DNA of 64,000 nucleotides from Leuctra nigra (taxonomy: Eukaryota; Arthropoda; Insecta; Plecoptera; Leuctridae), in NCBI GenBank assembly GCA_934045905.1, contig OW203762.1, positions 22,166,345-22,230,344 on the forward strand, in the 5' to 3' direction. Shown one piece after another: positions 33,270 to 63,690 of the stretch; within the stretch, counting starts at the first letter, position 1; the number at the start of each line of letters is the position of its first letter. The translations under genes and the position numbers were made by a program. Under the pieces are notes generated by a model that saw only the letters and a list, made by a program, of their open reading frames with translations, had not been told where the DNA came from and did no database searches.

Positions 33270-36236
33270 TTATACATCATCAGAGTATTCATACAACCAA
33301 GATTTCACTTCTTTCTTAATACTACTATAATTATCTAAAGACTTAATTTCTTGAGGCAACTGATTGAAAATAAAAGGGACAGAGTAATTTAAACATCGCT
33401 TTCCATACTTATTAGTAAATCGGGGGAGTATTAAAGAAACTGGATTCACCATTGATCTAGTGGCCCTGGAATGATTGTAGATAATTTTAAGTTCGTTCGA
33501 ATAAAAATATTTGATTATGAATTTATATTTATACAAATCAGATATTGGAAGGAAGTTAAGATGATCGTACATTAAGAGAGTGTTATTGTTACATTTGAGC
33601 TTAACGGCATCAGGGGTCAAATTCTTGATCATTCTATCCTGTATAGATCGAATGACTTGAAGGTGAACATTGGATGTGCTGCCCCAAGCAAGTAAACCGT
33701 AAGAAATTACAGATTCCACTAAAGCAGAATATATTAATTTTAAAATTCTAACAGGTAAAAAAGATTTTACATGAAACAATTGAAACGAGCAAGAACGTAA
33801 TTTGGAAGCTAAGCTATTTATATGAGGTCTCCAGGAAAAGTATTTATCAATTGTTATACCTAAATATAAACAAGTATCAACCTCCTCAATCAGATCAGTA
33901 CAAGTACACAAAGCAAAATCTAATGTATGTAAACAATTAAAACTATGACACAATAATGTTACAGGGTCTAACCTACTTGCAATTGAAGGTGAACAAATGT
34001 GAATTAACTTAGTTTTTGTACTATTTACTAACAAATCATTATCATGAGTCCACATCAACAATGTATTGAAATCAGACTGAAGAATTATCTGAGCCTGTTC
34101 TAAATTTTTATGAGCAGATACTAGAACAGTGTCATCTGCGTACATATAAATTTTACAATTTTGAATATAACTAGGCATGTTATTCACATATAAGAGATAA
34201 AGAATTGGACCCAATATTGACCCTTGAGGTACACCAGAATTACATACCCCAGCTATACTCACAGTTTCACCAACTTTAACTATAATTTGCCTATCCGTTA
34301 AATAATTGTGAAACCAACATAAGAGGGGACCCCGAATACCAGCATTTTCAAGAGATGTTAACAATTTTGTATGGTTTAACGTATCAAATGCCTTTGAAAA
34401 GTCTATAAAAAGAGCCAGAACGTGCATATTCTCATTTAATTTAGAATTTATGTAATCAGCGAAAAGAGTAAGCAGATCAGTGGTGCTTCTACCTTTTTGA
34501 AAACCAAACTGATGTGAATTGATGATTTTAAACTTTGATAAATAATCAGTTAATATTTTTGCAACACACCGCTCCATAATTTTCTCAATAGTAGGGAGCA
34601 AAGCAATTGGTCGGTAATTATTGAACTCGAGGTGGTCACCTTTTTTGTAAACAGGTCGAATTATTGACATTTTTAATTTAGATATAACAACACCTTCTGA
34701 AATTGAAGTATTAATAATTTTAGCAATAACTGGGCTTACTTTTTCCGCTATATTTTTCAAATCAGTTATTCGTATCCTGTCAAAACCCGGTTGTTTGTTA
34801 GAGTTTAATGAATTTATAATATAATTTATGCGGGTGGCACACACTGGAGGCATGTATAAAGACTGAAGCTGAACTACATCATAATTGTAACTTAAAGTAT
34901 GAATGTTGCAAACATGTTTCAAAGATTCTACCTCACTGATGAAACAGTGCAAAAATCTATCTGCAATCTGCTTATCATTGAATTGTTTCCCTAAATATTT
35001 ACTTAAAACCTGATCTACAGTATCCTTTTTCTTTTTACCAAGTACATCATTAATAGATTGCCATGTGTCCTTAATACTTCCTCTAGACTTCTCAAAGACA
35101 CCTGTATAATAAATTTTTTTGGCATTACGAATAGCATTATTTATTTTATTTCTGAATTTTTTGTACTCGACGCCATAGTAAAATTTCAATACACCGTTAC
35201 AATTCTTCCATTTCTTAAATAGACGGTCTCTTTCTTTACAGGATTTAATAATATCAGCCGTCAACCAAGACTTTTTCTTACGTTTCCCCAGCTGGTAATT
35301 TAGGTAATAAGATTCATCATAACAATAATCAAACTTGGCAGTTAGGTTGTCAAAAACGTCAGTGCATGTATCATATGTCATAGGCTCAAGCCAATCACAC
35401 TCTCTCAACAAACGTGTTAATTTAACTTCATTAATGCATTTTTTTACTGGAATTTGATGTTGAAATTTCTGAGATGAGCCATGAAACATGATTCCGGCAA
35501 TAATTATATAATGATCAGATATCTTGGTAGTGTACACAGCCGACTTAATATCATGGCAACTAGACTTAATAAAAATGTGATCAATGCAAGTACTCGTAAA
35601 AACATCACCTCTACATTCCTCGCGTGTTGCATCATTAATACAATTAATATAACCATTTGCAGCCATTAGCGATAAATATGAACGAACATTGCAATCATCT
35701 GAATCGAACAGATTTAAATTCATATCTCCTAATATTACAACATTATTTACTTTGGAATAATTTCCAATGTACATTTCCAATTCCTCCACGAAACCACCTC
35801 TATTTAAATTAGGTGGCCTATAAATTGCCAACAAGGTAATAACATTTCCATTTGCCAGAGAAAAGATTCCTCCTACTCCTTCAAAATACTGAAATTCATC
35901 ATCATTTACAACAAAATGCCATACAGATTTTACAAATAACAATATTCCTCCTCCACCCCTATTTACACGAGTATAATGAAATCTATCATAACCTTCAATG
36001 CTAAAGAGAGAAATAGGTGTGGTTGCAGTTATTGCGATTTCGGTTATCGCAATGACATCCACAACCCCTATTTGCTTACATAATATACCATTTAATTGGT
36101 CCCAATTTTTATTTATTGATCTGATGTTCACATGTAAACAAGTGAAAAATTCCTCTACTTTAGAAAACCAACTGTCAATATCTGATATTACTTCCCTCTC
36201 GACTTCTTCTGTAAACACAAATTCTATGTTTTGCAT
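33270..36236 (-). CDS. LINE ORF2: endonuclease and reverse transcriptase
   Basis: This 988-residue frame encodes the replication enzyme of the LINE: it nicks the target and copies the element RNA there (target-primed reverse transcription). Residues about 30-250 form an apurinic-type endonuclease: LHVNIRSINKN near the start, GDMNLNLFD near 172 and the catalytic SDH near 240. Residues about 480-760 form the reverse transcriptase: NYRPIALLPTIEKIMER, then FIDFSKAFD near 610, GVPQGSILGP near 670 and the active-site YADD near 698. A C-terminal region with CLYLGITID and LIYSALVESVISYGLLAWG is typical of this group. No RNase H domain is evident. It starts 16 bases after the ORF1 stop. All catalytic motifs are present and there is no frameshift. 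Confidence 0.95.
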   Translation of the reverse strand: MQNIEFVFTEEVEREVISDIDSWFSKVEEFFTCLHVNIRSINKNWDQLNGILCKQIGVVDVIAITEIAITATTPISLFSIEGYDRFHYTRVNRGGGGILLFVKSVWHFVVNDDEFQYFEGVGGIFSLANGNVITLLAIYRPPNLNRGGFVEELEMYIGNYSKVNNVVILGDMNLNLFDSDDCNVRSYLSLMAANGYINCINDATREECRGDVFTSTCIDHIFIKSSCHDIKSAVYTTKISDHYIIIAGIMFHGSSQKFQHQIPVKKCINEVKLTRLLRECDWLEPMTYDTCTDVFDNLTAKFDYCYDESYYLNYQLGKRKKKSWLTADIIKSCKERDRLFKKWKNCNGVLKFYYGVEYKKFRNKINNAIRNAKKIYYTGVFEKSRGSIKDTWQSINDVLGKKKKDTVDQVLSKYLGKQFNDKQIADRFLHCFISEVESLKHVCNIHTLSYNYDVVQLQSLYMPPVCATRINYIINSLNSNKQPGFDRIRITDLKNIAEKVSPVIAKIINTSISEGVVISKLKMSIIRPVYKKGDHLEFNNYRPIALLPTIEKIMERCVAKILTDYLSKFKIINSHQFGFQKGRSTTDLLTLFADYINSKLNENMHVLALFIDFSKAFDTLNHTKLLTSLENAGIRGPLLCWFHNYLTDRQIIVKVGETVSIAGVCNSGVPQGSILGPILYLLYVNNMPSYIQNCKIYMYADDTVLVSAHKNLEQAQIILQSDFNTLLMWTHDNDLLVNSTKTKLIHICSPSIASRLDPVTLLCHSFNCLHTLDFALCTCTDLIEEVDTCLYLGITIDKYFSWRPHINSLASKLRSCSFQLFHVKSFLPVRILKLIYSALVESVISYGLLAWGSTSNVHLQVIRSIQDRMIKNLTPDAVKLKCNNNTLLMYDHLNFLPISDLYKYKFIIKYFYSNELKIIYNHSRATRSMVNPVSLILPRFTNKYGKRCLNYSVPFIFNQLPQEIKSLDNYSSIKKEVKSWLYEYSDDV

Positions 36237-36252
36237 AAACTGGAAGCAAGTA

Positions 36253-37149
36253 TTAACCCGCTAAATCTGACTCAGCCTGCCTATCAGAAACCAAAAGGTC
36301 AATATCCTGGTAAGAAGTAATTCTAAATACTTTACGGGAATTTTCGTCCTTGCGCACCAAGACCTTTCCGTGGCTCCACCAAACGAACTTGTAGCCGGTT
36401 TCCTTTGCCCTAGTCTTGACCGACCAGAGGAGTTCGCGGAAGAAAGGAGCCAAATTCTCGTTGATGTATATGCGGGACTGACCCACTTGTACAATATCTT
36501 GACTCTTAATTGTAGCTGCTACCTTCTTTTTGTTTATAATTTCGTCTCTCTTCTTTCTGTTTACGAATCGAACAATGATTCTAGGAGGTCTGACTGAATT
36601 CCTCGACGGAAGGCGATGCGCTGCCTCAATATCACTTGCAGACAAATCCACGGATAGTTTTGCCGCCACTTTAATAACGATAGCTTCAATATTTTCCCCC
36701 ACGACTTCAGATACGTTGTCAATCTCAATGTTATTGCGCCTACCGTATTGGTCAAGATCGTTGACCTGCTGCACCAGAAACTCAATCCGCTCGTCTTTCT
36801 CGTCGCAACGTTGTTGCAAGTCAGCCACCCCAGCCTCAATGGCAATAACTTTCTTCGCTATGTCGTCTTTGAAACAGCGCAAATCTTCAGACACTACTCT
36901 GAAACTCTCCAGAAGTTCACGCTTTAAATCAGCAATTGCCGCAGTAAAGTCAGGAAAAACAAACGGTGTATCGTCCTTGGGCGTTTTAACTTTACCCTTT
37001 ATGCACTTCGGACAACGCCACAACTTCCTATTTTCCTGCGTTTTCAATTTAGCACAGTCAAAGTGACAATTTAAAGAACAACCTGAGCACTGAATGAAGT
37101 CAGCATCAGCTGATAAGTCTAACTTGCACTTGGAGTTTAGGCACGACAT
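36253..37149 (-). CDS. LINE ORF1: PHD-finger, coiled-coil protein
   Basis: I choose the Met at 37,149 (298 residues), directly before the first zinc-binding cysteine. The open frame extends to 37,239, but the extra 30 residues look like leader sequence. A PHD-type finger occupies about residues 1-50, with pairs CLNSKC, CSGC, H/C and CPKC. A charged helical region follows (about 85-140), ending in DLDQYGRRNNIEI, and then a conserved domain with AAHRLPSR and PPRIIVRFVNRKKRDEI, which is typical of CR1- and Jockey-like ORF1 proteins. Its likely role is an RNA-binding chaperone that packages the element transcript. No interruption is seen. Confidence 0.85.
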   Translation of the reverse strand: MSCLNSKCKLDLSADADFIQCSGCSLNCHFDCAKLKTQENRKLWRCPKCIKGKVKTPKDDTPFVFPDFTAAIADLKRELLESFRVVSEDLRCFKDDIAKKVIAIEAGVADLQQRCDEKDERIEFLVQQVNDLDQYGRRNNIEIDNVSEVVGENIEAIVIKVAAKLSVDLSASDIEAAHRLPSRNSVRPPRIIVRFVNRKKRDEIINKKKVAATIKSQDIVQVGQSRIYINENLAPFFRELLWSVKTRAKETGYKFVWWSHGKVLVRKDENSRKVFRITSYQDIDLLVSDRQAESDLAG

Positions 37150-37260
37150 AATAATGATAATAACACAGTAAATTGTCAATACACTGAAACGATGCGGAGC
37201 TACTGCTAGACACAACCATCCACTACACGGACCAAACAAGGAATAATCTCGACACTTGAA

Positions 37261-47400: not shown

Positions 47401-49465
47401 CACATGTTCGGTTTTCGTGTAAACGGGAAGAGTGACACTTCTAGGAAAAGGTGTGAAATGCATGCAATTAAACTATTCAGATGACAATAAACCTCATGGT
47501 TGATATAACTGGTATGATGAGGTAATAAAAGATAATTGCTGGTTGATAGCATGGACTTTGTGAATGTCCTGGAAACGCAGTGTGTGGTATAGGATGTACG
47601 AAACACTTGAAAGCTTTGTTTCCAGTCTCCTATTCACAACTACATAAAATATTACTAATAACTTTAATTATGCATGATTATACAAACAATATGCTTTATT
47701 TATAATTGTAATTGTTGTCATGGTTGTGGTGCTGTCGTTTAATAGTTTATGTGAGTGTAGGAATGAAAACAAAGCTCAAGTGGAAGAAAAGGTTGGCTCC
47801 TGTAAATGTTAGCATCTCTGTTGCTTCGATCACGTTAGCTTTTCTCTGATTAGTCGATAATCTTGCGGCAGATGCTGTGTTCAAAGCTGTATAACTCTTT
47901 TCAAACTGTTACGTGAATGAATATATTTTTTTATATAGTTATAGGGAATGCTTTTATTATTATAATTATTGTATAAAATGGCGTGATAGAAGAATATAAT
48001 ATGTTTATGTATTTAATTGTGAGACAAACGTTCTTCCCATAACGCTCGGTTCGACAAGAAAATATCGTGATATCAACACTTTAGTGATATAAAATTCATC
48101 GTTCACGAATAACTTACGAATATTTAATAAATCGTAAATTCACGGATTTTCTTACGTGAATCTCATCGCTGGCAGGTATTAATAAAATAATAATATTGAA
48201 TCGTTAATAAAATAGACCTGCAAACGTCTTGGCATTTTTTTTCAGTCGAATTGATTTTTATCTAAGTCTGTTTTAGAACTATTTTAGGGGTGCATAAGTA
48301 TCCCGAGGAATTATATCTACACAAAATTTAAACTAAGGTAGTCTACAATTATACCTTCAGTTCGACAGGTAGGCATATTAATTCCATTCTTCTATACGTT
48401 TAAAACAAATAGACGTGGTGATCAAAGTTCTTTGTTGCATTCAAGTTCGTCTCAATGGAATACAATATGTAATTTAAATTGAGTTAAAATTCTATACCCT
48501 CAAGATAAAACGAAACAAGAAATAAATGAATTCCAATGCGATGGCACCCTACACTTTGCTTTCTAATAATAACTAACTATAATACTCTAATGCCACTGTC
48601 CGTACGAGGGAATCAAATCTCGAGACATATTATTAACAAGTGCTGTACTCCAAACTCGAGCTAACATGGTTTCAGACTCGTTAAAGGGTTGTGTATAGCT
48701 TTTATTTGTTGAGATGCATCAAAATTATTGTATAAATTACATCAAAGTTATTAATACTTTTAATAATTTCGAAACTATAAAATAGCATCATTTTTCATTT
48801 CTTTTGAGCAACACCGAAAACCGCAAAAGCTGCAACATTTTATTAGTCATAAATTTGTAATTTATGTAGGTACCTACACTCAGATATAAACTACATTTTT
48901 TCTACAACCAAAGGTCATAATTTGAAATGTCGCATCCTCCCTATATTTTCGAAATGCATCTCTTTTCGTGTCTTACCTGGCGTGACCTAGGAGAAACACA
49001 CTACTTTAAAAGTGATTAATGCTCATTACATGAATCAGGAGAGTGTTATCCGTTGGTCGAGATGCTATAGGCTCGAGGGCGAGTGACTGTGAATTGTTTT
49101 TAATCGCCGTCTTCTCATCGCTCCTGGCTGCGAGCAAGACCTGAATAATTGATAGTTACCTATCTCCTTGATTGAACGCGCAACTGCAGTGTGCACTGCA
49201 CACGCGATTTCGTTGCTCCACGGGAACTGTAATTGATATTAACTTCGAGACGTTGTAAATCATCCGGAGAACGCGAATAAAATATTAATTACGAGACTTG
49301 ACTTCAAAAGATTTTTTTAGACGTTCAACTGGAGTTAGGATGTAATGAAGTGGTCCGGGGTTCGGTTCAGATCTTTATGACTTCATTCGTTCATCAGATT
49401 ATTTATCTTAGTACTATGTAGTTGGGTAAAATTACAGATTGATTGAAGACGGGATGTCTTGTAGG
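44464..49465. other. grh intron, left part
   Basis: AT-rich intron. A GC- and CpG-rich patch at about 45,700-45,970 contains an ATG frame (45,867) but no donor with a usable phase that I can support. I see nothing else beyond short open frames. Confidence 0.7.
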
Positions 49466-50045
49466 AATGGAGGTGCCGTGTAAATAAGGCAGGTTTGTCT
49501 GGGGAGTGGAAGTGCCATTTGCTTATAGGAGTGGAGGTGCCGGGTTAAATGATGCAAGGTTGCTTGTGGGAGTGGAGGTGCCGTTGCTTATAGGAGTGGA
49601 GGTGCCGTGTAAATGAAGCAGGGTTGTTTGTGAGAGTGGAGGTGCCGTGTAAATAAGGCAGGGCTGCTTTTGGTCAGTGTTGGGGAAGTTCCTTTTCAAA
49701 AAGATCATGAGCAAGCAAGTACACCAAAAAATAAAGGAACTGACAAAACGTTAAGTTCCTTTTTCGATCACTAAAAGCAAAAGTTCAAGTTCACCAAAAT
49801 TTTGTTCAAAAGTTCATTTCAAAAGTTCATTTTCAAGATGCTAATTTTTCTGATGCTCTCCCCATAAAGCAGATTAATTTCAAAACGTAATATTTACTGA
49901 AAGCTTGAAAAATTTCAAAAGTTAGCTTTTGAACTTTCATATTTATTTAAAAAGTAGTGAACCTAAAGCACTCGAAAAAGTAAAGTAAACTTTTCAAACG
50001 TTCCTTCCCCATGACTGCTAGATGGGAGTGGAGGCGCCGTGTATC
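49466..50045 (+). repeat. GGAGGTGCCG minisatellite, interrupted by a MITE
   Basis: The core GGAGGTGCCG starts at 49,469, 49,533, 49,574, 49,598 and 49,638, with a decayed copy (GGAAGTGCCA) at 49,507 and another (GGAGGCGCCG) at 50,030. Spacings alternate between about 40 and 25 bases, so the true unit is 64-65 bp made of two half-units. Linkers share GTAAATAAGGCAGGGTTG or GCTTATAGGAGT. The last gap is lengthened by an inserted element at 49,675-50,017. Confidence 0.85.
49675..50017. mobile_element. hAT-like MITE inside the minisatellite
   Basis: The element begins CAGTGTTGGGGAAG and ends, read inward on the other strand, CAGTCATGGGGAAG; both termini continue into a TTC/AAAAG-rich stretch. Terminal CAG and about 14-28 bp inverted repeats fit hAT elements. 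Its 343 bp contain no transposase and many AAAAGTTC phrases. Removing 343 bases plus an 8-bp duplication restores the normal 40-41 base spacing of the surrounding minisatellite, which supports both limits. The flanks CTTTTGGT and CTAGATGG are not an intact duplication. Confidence 0.65.
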
Positions 50046-59038: not shown

Positions 59039-59196
59039 AACTTCGACTACACGGACCTGTGCCAAGCGCCCATGCTGAGTGACCCTGCGAGGGTGGCTGG
59101 ACAATCTCCCGGGCAGGTCAGCAACGGGGGGAGGTCACGACCTTGGCACGACTTTGGCAGGCAAAACGACGCCGACAAAATACAGATTCCTAAAAT
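59039..59196 (+). CDS. grh: grainyhead linker exon before the DNA-binding domain
   Basis: The acceptor is TATGTTCCAG, ending at 59,038; the donor is GTGAGT at 59,197. The exon starts in phase 0, fitting the phase-0 end at 53,689, and has 52 codons plus two bases (AT). It begins NFDYTDLCQ, like FDYTELCQ of fly Grainyhead, and ends RPWHDFGRQNDADKIQIPK, nearly identical to the fly protein where the CP2 DNA-binding domain begins. The split codon AT+A (Ile) is completed by the first base after any acceptor in the downstream array, which is why all array acceptors keep frame. Copy GGTGGAGGTGCCGGG of the minisatellite core lies 22 bases after the donor. Confidence 0.96.
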
Positions 59197-61425
59197 GTGA
59201 GTTCAGATTCGGAGTTTGGTGGAGGTGCCGGGTTACCGACATAAACAAAAATATATCGTATCTTTATTATTTTCTCATTTACACTTTGTTATTTATAGAA
59301 AGCATCTCAAGATTCACTATATTACATTTCAGTAGAGGTTACAGATACAAGTAAAGATAGTTAACGTACAAGATAGAAAATACTTTTAAATGGTTAACAT
59401 GATGACTGAATGGCTATTTGAGGTAACGAATTGAATTGTTTGAGCGTCACTGACACCAACTATTCCAGATGCGACAAGAAATGTTGGGCTGGATTTATGC
59501 AAACATCTTTACGCTTTGACGCGATACATGTTGCACAAACGAATTTGTATTGCCCAAAAATAAATAAGAATTTAATAGCACAGTTTGATCTCGTTGGTTC
59601 TAATGGCACACTATAAGTTCAAAGTAAATTAAAATCTAGTTAAGTATGGTATTAAGTTCACGACGCGAAAGAGTTTCGCAGTGGCTGAACGTCTGCAAAT
59701 CATATTAAAAAAAATCCACATTATAACTAATTGAGAACTAGTTGTCAAATGAAATTAATATCGGTCAGTCCATAAATGTTGGCAGCGATACTATAATTTT
59801 TTCACTCCAATAATCGCATCAGACTCATACTGCGTCATCGCAGCAAAACTAGTCCAAATACAGTTATATTTCGCGATTTTTTTCCCTCCCCAAGTACTGA
59901 ACTTAATCTTTATAAAAATGTTGCTTGGGAGTGGTCAATATATAAAACCCAATGACCATCACTCATTAGCATCAGGTCAATGATCTCTGTGATCACTAAG
60001 ATGAATACAGGTGTAAATTATCACCGCAAAAGATGTCGTCTCGGACATGTGTTTAGGTGGGGACTCTTTCGTTTTAATGACTTTGGACCAAAGTGACCGT
60101 GTAAAATGCCCACTGCATTGAGTGGCTGATATCTAAACGATAATGCTCTACACCTAAGACGAACACGTTCTCAAAGGTGTGAAAGGCGAGATTCTAGCTG
60201 GGGAAAAAGAAACTGTTTATTGAGAATGTTCTCATGTAATGGTGACAATGACGAGTTAGCTGCTGGCTCTGATTGTGCGGAGAAATAATGTTAATAATTA
60301 AGGAAGAGGAGTGGAATTAAATCTGCAACGGTCGAGACTTACCAGACCTGTCACGTAGAACCTATAGATTGTCTTCTTTTTTCATTGACTCGAAACGGGA
60401 ATATCGAGTTTCTGGTTTTCACATCATTCGGCGCATAGTTTTCTTCCGGTCCAGACGCTAGTGCATCTTTGTTGACCGCTTTTGACCTCTTTCAAGAGAA
60501 TTCTTTATTCACATGATTTATAAAAAACATTTATTACGTTTGTTAACAATTCTCTGATTTTTTTCTTTTGGGTATGAGTGATTGTGTTTGCCTAATACGC
60601 ATGTGCACGTATTGTAGATACGATCTGCAGCGTAGAAAGCAATGCGACAGGAGGAAAAAGCGTCAGAAGGAGCACGTAAGCTCATGTTTAGGTCGTAAAG
60701 ACTTACCGACACTGCCTTAGAGAGTAACTTGTTCGTTGCTAATAAATTGCAGGAGGCCTTAAAACTTAGATGCACTACAAATTAAAATTTACAAAGCTCA
60801 TTTAGGAGAATGCCGAAAACAGAGATCGATTTCTTCAATATTTTTAACGAGAGGTTTATTTTTAATTTTAGCTAATGAGTAGTTTTAATTGGCTAACGTG
60901 TGGTATGCCAGGACCTTGTAAAGTTATAGCAGCAAGGACTCAAAAGAGGCGCTTTGTGCATTCGATGAAAAACCTTTCTCCCAATTATAAATGACGGTAC
61001 ATTTAGCTACCTTGAAAAAATGCTATGCTTCTGGATTAGGATTCATTATCATTTCGGTTTTTGCCTAAGCGAAGCATTCAGGCCACGCCCGTTTATAACG
61101 TCAAATTTCGTTAATTAGTTTGATCCTGGATGGCAATTAATTAGATGAGAAACTTCTTTCTCGTTAGGTACGATACTAACGCTGCTGACGAGAATGTTGA
61201 TTCCATGTTGTGCGTGCTCAGTCCTCATATAAGATCAAAAACTCTTTTTACGAGACTACGTGTGAGTTTCGAATAAGAATCGGTTGTGTATATTTTCCTT
61301 TTTTTTCAAAGCAACAGATATTATCATCTATAACATATAGGTTTCTAAATCTTTCCAACTCGTAACTTAAAGAATCAGACTCGGTTGAATCACGAAGAAG
61401 AGAAAAGAACTGCGAAAATGAGTCC
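59197..61425. other. grh intron before the acceptor array
   Basis: AT-rich intron without recognised genes. No other acceptor near its end is in phase with 59,196: for example CAG at 61,376-61,378 would shift the frame, and a stop (TAA at 61,363) closes the array frame upstream. The intron end is therefore set within the array. Confidence 0.7.
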
Positions 61426-62769
61426 ATGTTTGTCGGTTTCAGATACTCGCAATACGGTTTCAAGTACAACTTGATGTTTGTCGGTTTCAGATACTCGCAA
61501 TACGGCTTCAAGAACAACTTGATGTTTATCGGTTTCAGATACTCGCAATACGGCTTCAAGTACAACTTGATGTTTGTCGGTTTCAGATACTCGCAATACG
61601 GCTTCAAGTACAACTTGATGTTTGTCGGTTTCAGATACTCGCAATACGGCTTCAAGTACAACTTGATGTTTGTCGGTTTCAGATACTCGCAATACGGCTT
61701 CAAGTACAACTTGATGCTTGTCGGTTTCAGATACTCGCAATACGGCTTCAAGTACAACTTGATGCTTGTCGGTTTCAGATACTCGCAATACGGCTTCAAG
61801 TACAACTTGATGCTTGTCGGTTTCAGATACTCGCAATACGGCTTCAAGTACAACTTGATGCTTGTCGGTTTCAGATACTCGCAATACGGCTTCAAGTACA
61901 ACTTGATGTTTGTCGGTTTCAGATACTCGCAATACGGCTTCAAGTACAACTTGATGTTTGTCGGTTTCAGATACTCGCAATACGGCTTCAAGTACAACTT
62001 GATGCTTGTCGGTTTCAGATACTCGCAATACGGCTTCAAGTACAACTTGATGTTTGTCGGTTTCAGATACTCGCAATACGGCTTCAAGTACAACTTGATG
62101 TTTGTCGGTTTCAGATACTCGCAATACGGCTTCAAGTACAACTTGATGTTTGTCGGTTTCAGATACTCGCAATACGGCTTCAAGTACAACTTGATGCTTG
62201 TCGGTTTCAGATACTCGCAATACGGCTTCAAGTACAACTTGATGTTTGTCGGTTTCAGATACTCGCAATACGGCTTCAAGTACAACTTGATGTTTGTCGG
62301 TTTCAGATACTCGCAATACGGCTTCAAGTACAACTTGATGCTTGTCGGTTTCAGATACTCGCAATACGGCTTCAAGTACAACTTGATGTTTGTCGGTTTC
62401 AGATACTCGCAATACGGCTTCAAGTACAACTTGATGCTTGTCGGTTTCAGATACTCGCAATACGGCTTCAAGTACAACTTGATGTTTGTCGGTTTCAGAT
62501 ACTCGCAATACGGCTTCAAGTACAACTTGATGTTTGTCGGTTTCAGATACTCGCAATACGGCTTCAAGTACAACTTGATGCTTGTCGGTTTCAGATACTC
62601 GCAATACGGCTTCAAGTACAACTTGATGCTTGTCGGTTTCAGATACTCGCAATACGGCTTCAAGTACAACTTGATGCTTGTCGGTTTCAGATACTCGCAA
62701 TACGGCTTCAAGTACAACTTGATGCTTGTCGGTTTCAGATACTCGCAATACGGCTTCAAGTACAACTTG
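61426..62769 (+). repeat. grh: 28-copy, 48-bp array, each copy a splice acceptor
   Basis: Exactly 28 head-to-tail units of 48 bp (1,344 bp). Each unit contains a branch-like TTGAT, a TG/T-rich run ending GGTTTCAG, and then the exon start ATACTCGCAATACGG. Acceptor AGs lie at 61,441-61,442 and every 48 bases to 62,737-62,738. Translated in the grh frame the unit is [16 protein letters not shown] (16 residues, no stop). Units are nearly identical. The main variable base is the T or C of TTT/CTT (Phe/Leu) in the pyrimidine run; single variants are GGT in unit 1, AAC (Asn) in unit 2 and ATC (Ile) in unit 3. The last unit runs directly into [11 protein letters not shown], the conserved DNA-binding domain. 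Long antisense frames across the array follow from its 3-divisible unit and are not genes. Expansion by assembly error cannot be excluded from sequence alone. Confidence 0.97.
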
Positions 62770-62901
62770 GAGACGCCGATCTCCACGAGCCAGAGGAGGG
62801 AAGACGACAGGATAACGTACATCAATAAGGGCCAGTTTTATGGCATCACGTTGGAGTACATCCCTGATCCTGACAAGCCACTCAAGAGTCAAACAGTCAA
62901 G
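62739..62901 (+). CDS. grh: grainyhead DNA-binding-domain exon (minimal form)
   Basis: With the last array acceptor (AG at 62,737-62,738) the exon is one base plus 54 codons and ends with AAG before donor GTAAGA at 62,902, phase 0. It reads [15 protein letters not shown], then [20 protein letters not shown] and [13 protein letters not shown]. Position by position after IQIPK it aligns without gaps to the fly segment LFTNVGFRYHLESPIS, which places the ancestral exon start at this acceptor rather than at the first ATG of the open frame. The segment is the N-terminal part of the immunoglobulin-like CP2/Grainyhead DNA-binding domain. Using an earlier array acceptor lengthens the exon by multiples of 48 nt; using the first gives an exon from 61,443 with 432 extra residues. 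The rest of the domain lies beyond the window. Confidence 0.95.
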
Positions 62902-63690
62902 GTAAGAACTCGAAGATTACACAACAGCAGGACAAAGATGTTGTTGAGAGATCAGTGCTTCAGAGGTAGTAGGCCCGATGTCCATTTTCTCTATTTTGCG
63001 TTGCACACGATTGGAATCGTTAGCCATTTGACTGATGTCAACAAATACAGTTATATTGATGTATTCTCTTACACAATGACTCGTGTCGCCATTACAAATA
63101 TGATTGGATGAGGGCAGAAATACTGCAGGATTTGAGCTCACCTCAAGAATCATTGAAATGTATTTCCGGCCTTCTACCTCTGAGGTACAGATGACGTATA
63201 GCCAAATTGAGATTTTCACTATTTGAGCTAGTGGGTGGTGGGAGAGGGGGGGGGGGCAATAAAACAATGCACCGTTCTGCAAATCAGATGATGATGACGA
63301 TGATGATGACGATGATGATGATGCAGAGTACATAATCATCGCTAATAGTAGAAAAAATAGTTTGAGAAGGAACGACTAACGCCATTTCTATTTTTTTTTA
63401 ATATCACGCTATAAAATCCTCCCCTATAAATCACAGACACTTTTTTGTATAGTTGAGAGTATAGAAATTCGCGACGGCAAAGCGATGAAGACAGGCCACA
63501 TTCAGTACGATCTATAATTCACAATGATAGGGTGTCAACCGCAGTTGTATACGCAAGATATAAGTAATTACTAAATTATGCAAATGAAAAATAAGTTTTT
63601 CTTACTGTCTCTCGTATTGCATACTGCATCCTTGCGTTGCATGCAAGGCATTCTTGGCAGCGTGGTAACTACGTCACGAGAGAAGATTTG

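Follow-up and report, generated by a model that had tools for sequence, protein, structure and literature searches.

A minisatellite repeats a predicted 3′ splice acceptor 28 times at the edge of the DNA-binding domain of grainyhead in the stonefly Leuctra nigra

The grainyhead gene of Leuctra nigra carries, at the start of the exon that opens its DNA-binding domain, 28 consecutive copies of a 48-bp unit, each comprising 17 nt of intron end (ending in TTTCAG) and the first 31 nt of the exon. We propose, at a probability of roughly 55 %, that among these 28 acceptor-bearing copies of the boundary mainly the last ones are spliced, that copy 28 would yield the normal protein, and that each copy upstream of it would add 16 in-frame residues at the edge of the domain. 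The window, that is, the whole stretch of DNA analysed, comprises 64,000 nt of contig OW203762.1 (assembly GCA_934045905.1, positions 22,166,345 to 22,230,344). In window coordinates, with a slash marking intron-exon boundaries and donor sites, the gene and the array are arranged as follows:

59039-59196, + strand: grainyhead exon A, upstream of the array; ends ...RPWHDFGRQNDADKIQIPK plus the AT of a split Ile codon
59197, + strand: donor of exon A, AT/GTGAGT, read from the sequence
59197-62738, + strand: intron of 3,542 nt that splicing to the last acceptor would remove
59197-61442, + strand: intron of 2,246 nt that splicing to the first acceptor would remove
61366-63111, + strand: open frame, in the frame of exon B, spanning the array, all copies of which are free of stops
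61426-62769, + strand: minisatellite, 28 x 48 bp (Tandem Repeats Finder, alignment of the copies)
61426-61473, + strand: copy 1, which would place the first exon base at 61443; the 12-60 nt before it contain no yUnAy motif
62722-62769, + strand: copy 28, whose boundary yields the conserved protein
62739-62901, + strand: grainyhead exon B, start of the CP2/Grainyhead DNA-binding domain (joined reading frame, domain match)
62902, + strand: donor of exon B, AAG/GTAAGA, read from the sequence

The unit reads ATG, then T or C, then TTGTCGGTTTCAG/ATACTCGCAATACGGCTTCAAGTACAACTTG. Tandem Repeats Finder gives 28.0 head-to-tail copies with 98 % matches and 0 % indels, which bears out the 28 uninterrupted copies claimed in the initial annotation, and a unit of this length (about 10-100 bp), homogeneous and arranged head to tail, makes the array a minisatellite. 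Both edges are sharp, as neither of the flanking 48-base stretches is a half-copy, and with the whole array as query a search of the 536,196,549-base assembly returned a single location, C2 22,227,770-22,229,113. Only four sites within the unit vary across the copies. Thirteen of the 28 share one identical sequence and 12 a second one, which differs by the T/C exchange at unit position 4, while copies 1, 2 and 3 each have a private single change (at unit positions 33, 40 and 7, respectively); copies 25-28 are mutually identical. The confinement of private variants to copies 1-3 gives the impression that the array is oldest at its 5′ edge. The order of the T/C variants has no visible structure: they form 12 runs, where shuffling yields 14.7 on average and 12 or fewer in 19.5 % of cases. 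Furthermore, the predicted RNA fold of copies 25-28 is stronger than that of shuffled sequences (z -2.96, with 3 of 200 shuffles equally good), which repetition alone may produce. At one intron end there are thus 28 TTTCAG/A sites, as expected of tandem acceptors. The unit has no GTRAGT donor, whereas in a tandem exon array of the Dscam type each copy would be a complete exon with acceptor and donor; the GT in its exon part reads CAA/GTACAA, and the donor of exon B is present once, 3′ of the array.

Joined to 62739-62901, exon A opens into an uninterrupted Grainyhead frame, the joined protein beginning NFDYTDLCQ and having no extra residues at the junction. The joined exons match Pfam CP2 at 33.2 bits (cut-off 25), which assigns the gene to the CP2 superfamily, and the best protein matches are the grainyhead products of Zootermopsis and Periplaneta (98 % over the 9 % of the query that is shared), as would be expected for a polyneopteran insect. 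The Pfam match begins two residues ahead of the junction Ile (position 51 in the joined sequence), and the alignments to GRHL1 and GRHL2 chains (5mpf, 5mpi, 5mr7) begin at the fourth or fifth residue past the junction. Both agree with the earlier placement of the array at the edge of the DNA-binding domain; judged by these alignments, inserted residues would fall at, and not clearly outside, its N-terminal edge. More CP2 exons lie downstream on C2, where exons were traced in order to the C-terminal domain and a stop codon, with a probe partly modelled on fly Grainyhead and with some exon boundaries left unplaced. At the sensitivity of a search with exons A, B and C joined, the assembly contains grainyhead once, the 29 matches being three genomic exons and 26 array copies; the same search revealed no processed copy (retrocopy) of grainyhead that could serve as evidence of splicing. 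A second CP2 gene lies on C7, and no array was seen near the first CP2 exon found of this paralogue, the exon boundary there being placed without confidence.

Two further elements lie in the same window. Upstream of the grainyhead exons described here, at 33270-37239 on the minus strand, two adjoining long ORFs of 988 and 328 aa resemble as a pair a non-LTR retrotransposon, the 988-aa ORF being reverse-transcriptase-like by eye. At 49458-49648, a 64-bp unit is repeated three times, imperfectly, and contains GTGGAGGTGCC; the same word, GGTGGAGGTGCC, occurs at ~59218, past exon A.

That the array multiplies a real intron-exon boundary, as had been claimed from homology to the fly protein, was confirmed in relatives by two protein searches. 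Among the best 120 of 212 matches in the first search (scoring was confined to the 7,994 candidates with the most words in common, and several matches are isoforms of one species), a pattern for the end of exon A (...I[PAQST]K-x) joined to the exon B peptide was found in 115; of the other five, P0037 is joined but was missed by the pattern, P0034 and P0066 are read from the intron, P0048 begins at the exon and P0118 lacks the motif. In the best 120 of 179 matches in the second, mostly unspliced ORFs, the residue just before the exon is Arg in 93 and Ser in 20, that is, an AGN codon in 113 (the remaining seven being two that begin at the exon, two spliced models, two others and one without the motif), and Val, the GTN of a donor, follows TVK in 112. 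Since the AGN codon corresponds to the terminal AG of the intron and the Val to the donor, many relatives have the intron at this position, which lies inside the repeated unit. No second YGF[KR][YF] or second G[FY][KR][YFND] was present in the 240 proteins listed (the best 120 of each search); no stonefly was seen among those named.

In the exon frame, 48 bp correspond to 16 codons, none of them a stop; since all copies are open, every acceptor of the array keeps the frame. Depending on the acceptor, 16n residues are predicted to be inserted, with n from 0 to 27, at the edge of the DNA-binding domain, and acceptors 28, 27, 26 and 1 joined to exon A are stop-free through exon B, giving 107, 123, 139 and 539 residues, respectively. 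The 16-residue step exists in two common forms, from which copies 2 and 3 each deviate by one residue; the common variant alters the protein (Phe/Leu), as do two of the three private ones. A period divisible by three arises by chance one time in three and is weak evidence of selection, yet it explains how such an array can be tolerated.

The acceptors were scored with an approximate matrix, which gave 8.3 for copy 1, 6.8-7.4 for copies 2-28, and 8.0-14.5 for nine other grainyhead acceptors, all nine of which lie above copies 2-28. Two sequence elements near the acceptors are given here at their last occurrence:

62719-62723, + strand: TTGAT, branch-site-like by motif match, at the seam of copies 27 and 28; the A is at position -17 relative to the exon
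62708-62722, + strand: TCAAGTACAACTTGA, a 6-bp inverted repeat with a 3-nt loop, completed by the seam; predicted fold of the 15-mer

TTGAT had been annotated as part of the repeat unit. It is in fact formed by the seam TTG/AT between successive copies, at all 27 seams and 17 nt before acceptors 2-28, so that copy 1 alone is not preceded by it. The hairpin predicted for TCAAGTACAACTTGA overlaps the motif, and according to this model the branch-like A, only 17 nt from the AG, may be buried in it.

As alternative starts of the exon we scored every AG between 59227 and 62901, 16 of which outside the array exceed a score of 4. The in-frame AGs at 59469, 59844, 59895, 59976 and 60912 were rejected as main starts, lying upstream of the opening of the frame at 61366 and being followed by in-frame stops, of which the first five from 59845 on were listed. 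Others, including 60455 (9.2), 61168 (8.2) and 61312 (8.3), are out of frame, as is 62794 (5.3), with which the exon start kept in relatives would be lost, and the AAG inside the unit would shift the frame. Nevertheless, AGs rejected as main starts may still compete: the out-of-frame AG before 61312 equals copy 1 and exceeds copies 2-28 on the approximate matrix, so cryptic sites could compete within the same intron.

How the spliceosome would choose among the copies depends on which rule prevails. Exon definition would be expected to produce a strong bias to the last copies and a short in-frame ladder. In a gene with long introns, such as this one (2.2-3.5 kb upstream and 8.3 kb downstream of exon B), it would favour acceptors near the donor, since the last acceptor gives an exon of 163 nt and the first one of 1,459 nt. 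Leakage to nearby upstream acceptors would then generate a 48-nt ladder of in-frame isoforms. Grainyhead is an essential gene, as known from other animals, and the array could be tolerated in it since the frame survives at every acceptor and copy 28 preserves the normal product. If the spliceosome instead scanned from a branch point located 5′ of the array, the first AG would be favoured, following the rule set out in PMC1431707.

If exclusive use of the last acceptor were the case, copies 1-27 would be inert intron and the array a neutral minisatellite with acceptor-like sequence. We regard this as unlikely, though as the alternative most deserving of attention: a normal protein requires just copy 28, the acceptors of copies 2-28 score low for grainyhead, and four other arrays of more than 1 kb lie within the same 224 kb. 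However, copies 25-28 are identical, so that copy 28 differs from copy 27 by position alone, and full exclusivity would demand strong exon definition. At the opposite extreme, use of the first or an early acceptor would turn the array into a coding minisatellite with up to 432 extra residues (27 x 16) of aromatic-rich YSQYGFKYN repeats. The open frame, the score of copy 1, which is the best in the array, and first-AG scanning as described in PMC1431707 are consistent with this, but the yUnAy motif is missing in the 12-60 nt ahead of copy 1, the exon would reach 1,459 nt, and none of the 240 proteins listed has a second repeat; we consider it improbable.

Slightly more improbable still appears a regulated isoform series, in which acceptor choice would vary with tissue or stage and Grainyhead would be tuned through insert length. 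Each step is indeed in frame, and 11 of the 120 listed relatives, mostly decapods, have in-frame inserts at the junction. On the other hand, copies 1-27 give no sign of selection at the protein level, given the residue changes noted above (Phe/Leu and two of the three private variants), and no repeat is found in the listed relatives, among whose names no stonefly was seen. An assembly artefact, or an inflated copy number, is very unlikely because the assembly is a HiFi assembly: for ipLeuNigr2.1, PMC10280035 gives HiFi coverage of 32x, shearing of the DNA to 12-20 kb and a QV of 57.2, and an array of 1.3 kb is short enough to fit well within one read. In addition, the sole run of N in 224 kb is ~87 kb away, and the T/C variants are interspersed along the array.

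In the one 224-kb region around the gene that was surveyed, four more arrays are longer than 1 kb (157 bp x 71, 78 bp x 40, 179 bp x 10.4 and 53 bp x 28, with 96-99 % matches). It is therefore plausible that an ordinary minisatellite captured an acceptor by chance, and we consider this the simplest origin; the array would have grown by unequal exchange or slippage. Most likely, the array is such a tolerated capture, and not an evolved device. Among these neighbours, the 157-bp satellite (71 copies, 98 % matches) occupies C2:22274703-22285877, beginning ~108 kb after the start of the window and ~15 kb past the grainyhead stop codon. The 78-bp array (40 copies, 99 % matches; C2:22142792-22145914) lies before the window, and its period is also a multiple of three.

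Minisatellites and VNTRs in or beside coding exons are known, and the grainyhead array resembles them in its homogeneous, head-to-tail 48-bp unit, the length of which is a multiple of three. In contrast, however, its unit carries the boundary itself, so that extra copies mean extra splice sites and more than additional codons or intron. Dscam, a tandem exon array, likewise repeats splice signals inside one gene, but the grainyhead units lack a consensus donor and, rather than being exons, constitute nested alternative starts of one exon. A further comparison is with laboratory constructs with duplicated 3′ splice sites, in which identical acceptors compete and differ only by position, whereas the array of Leuctra is natural, 28-fold, and located in a developmental regulator.

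Eleven of the 120 listed relatives (P0014, P0017, P0018, P0030, P0031, P0051, P0058, P0059, P0062, P0069 and P0070), mostly predicted models, have an in-frame second block at the junction, of the type KIQIPKI-HTEDDKIHIPK, with a second KIHIPK block following KIQIPK or KMQIPK, and ten of them are named as decapods or a stomatopod. The insert of decapod and stomatopod Grainyhead lies between ...KIQIPKI and the exon B peptide, at the same junction as the array, but it is one extra block, apparently from the upstream exon, the end of which it resembles, and not a repeated acceptor. Furthermore, Portunus isoforms X5 and X2 differ at the junction by VFSCFPR, a peptide with the look of a pyrimidine tract read in translation, which probably reflects an alternative acceptor. 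The decapod and stomatopod models, mostly predicted, suggest that the junction accepts inserts.

Among known tandem acceptors, those of the NAGNAG type, as described in PMC3250501, resemble the predicted behaviour of the array in that AGs compete at one intron end and small in-frame inserts arise at the junction, yet there two AGs lie 3 nt apart, whereas in Leuctra 28 predicted acceptor sequences lie 48 nt apart in near-identical context. The initial annotation knew of no acceptor array of this size; word searches of the open-access literature, with matches judged by title and the start of the abstract, likewise surfaced no equivalent, and the statement holds to that extent. Within the reach of these searches, tandem acceptors and minisatellites, both known kinds, are combined here in an unusual way for which no equivalent was found.

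Whether, among identical acceptors, the spliceosome takes the first AG that follows the branch point or the site closest to the downstream donor is an old question that has been studied with artificial duplications. Here, a genome supplies 28 near-identical predicted acceptors at a fixed spacing of 48 nt in one transcript, all in frame, from which the position rule could be read. A more ambitious reading, which we hold to be doubtful, is that of a length dial, in which an array of 28 acceptors with variable copy number would yield graded Grainyheads with 0-27 aromatic-rich 16-residue repeats at the front of the domain; if true, it would amount to a natural titration of the choice of the spliceosome among identical 3′ splice sites. 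Under the preferred reading of a captured and tolerated acceptor, our analysis suggests a route by which an array may enter a splice site of a key developmental gene, namely a period that keeps the frame and a last copy that retains the original junction.
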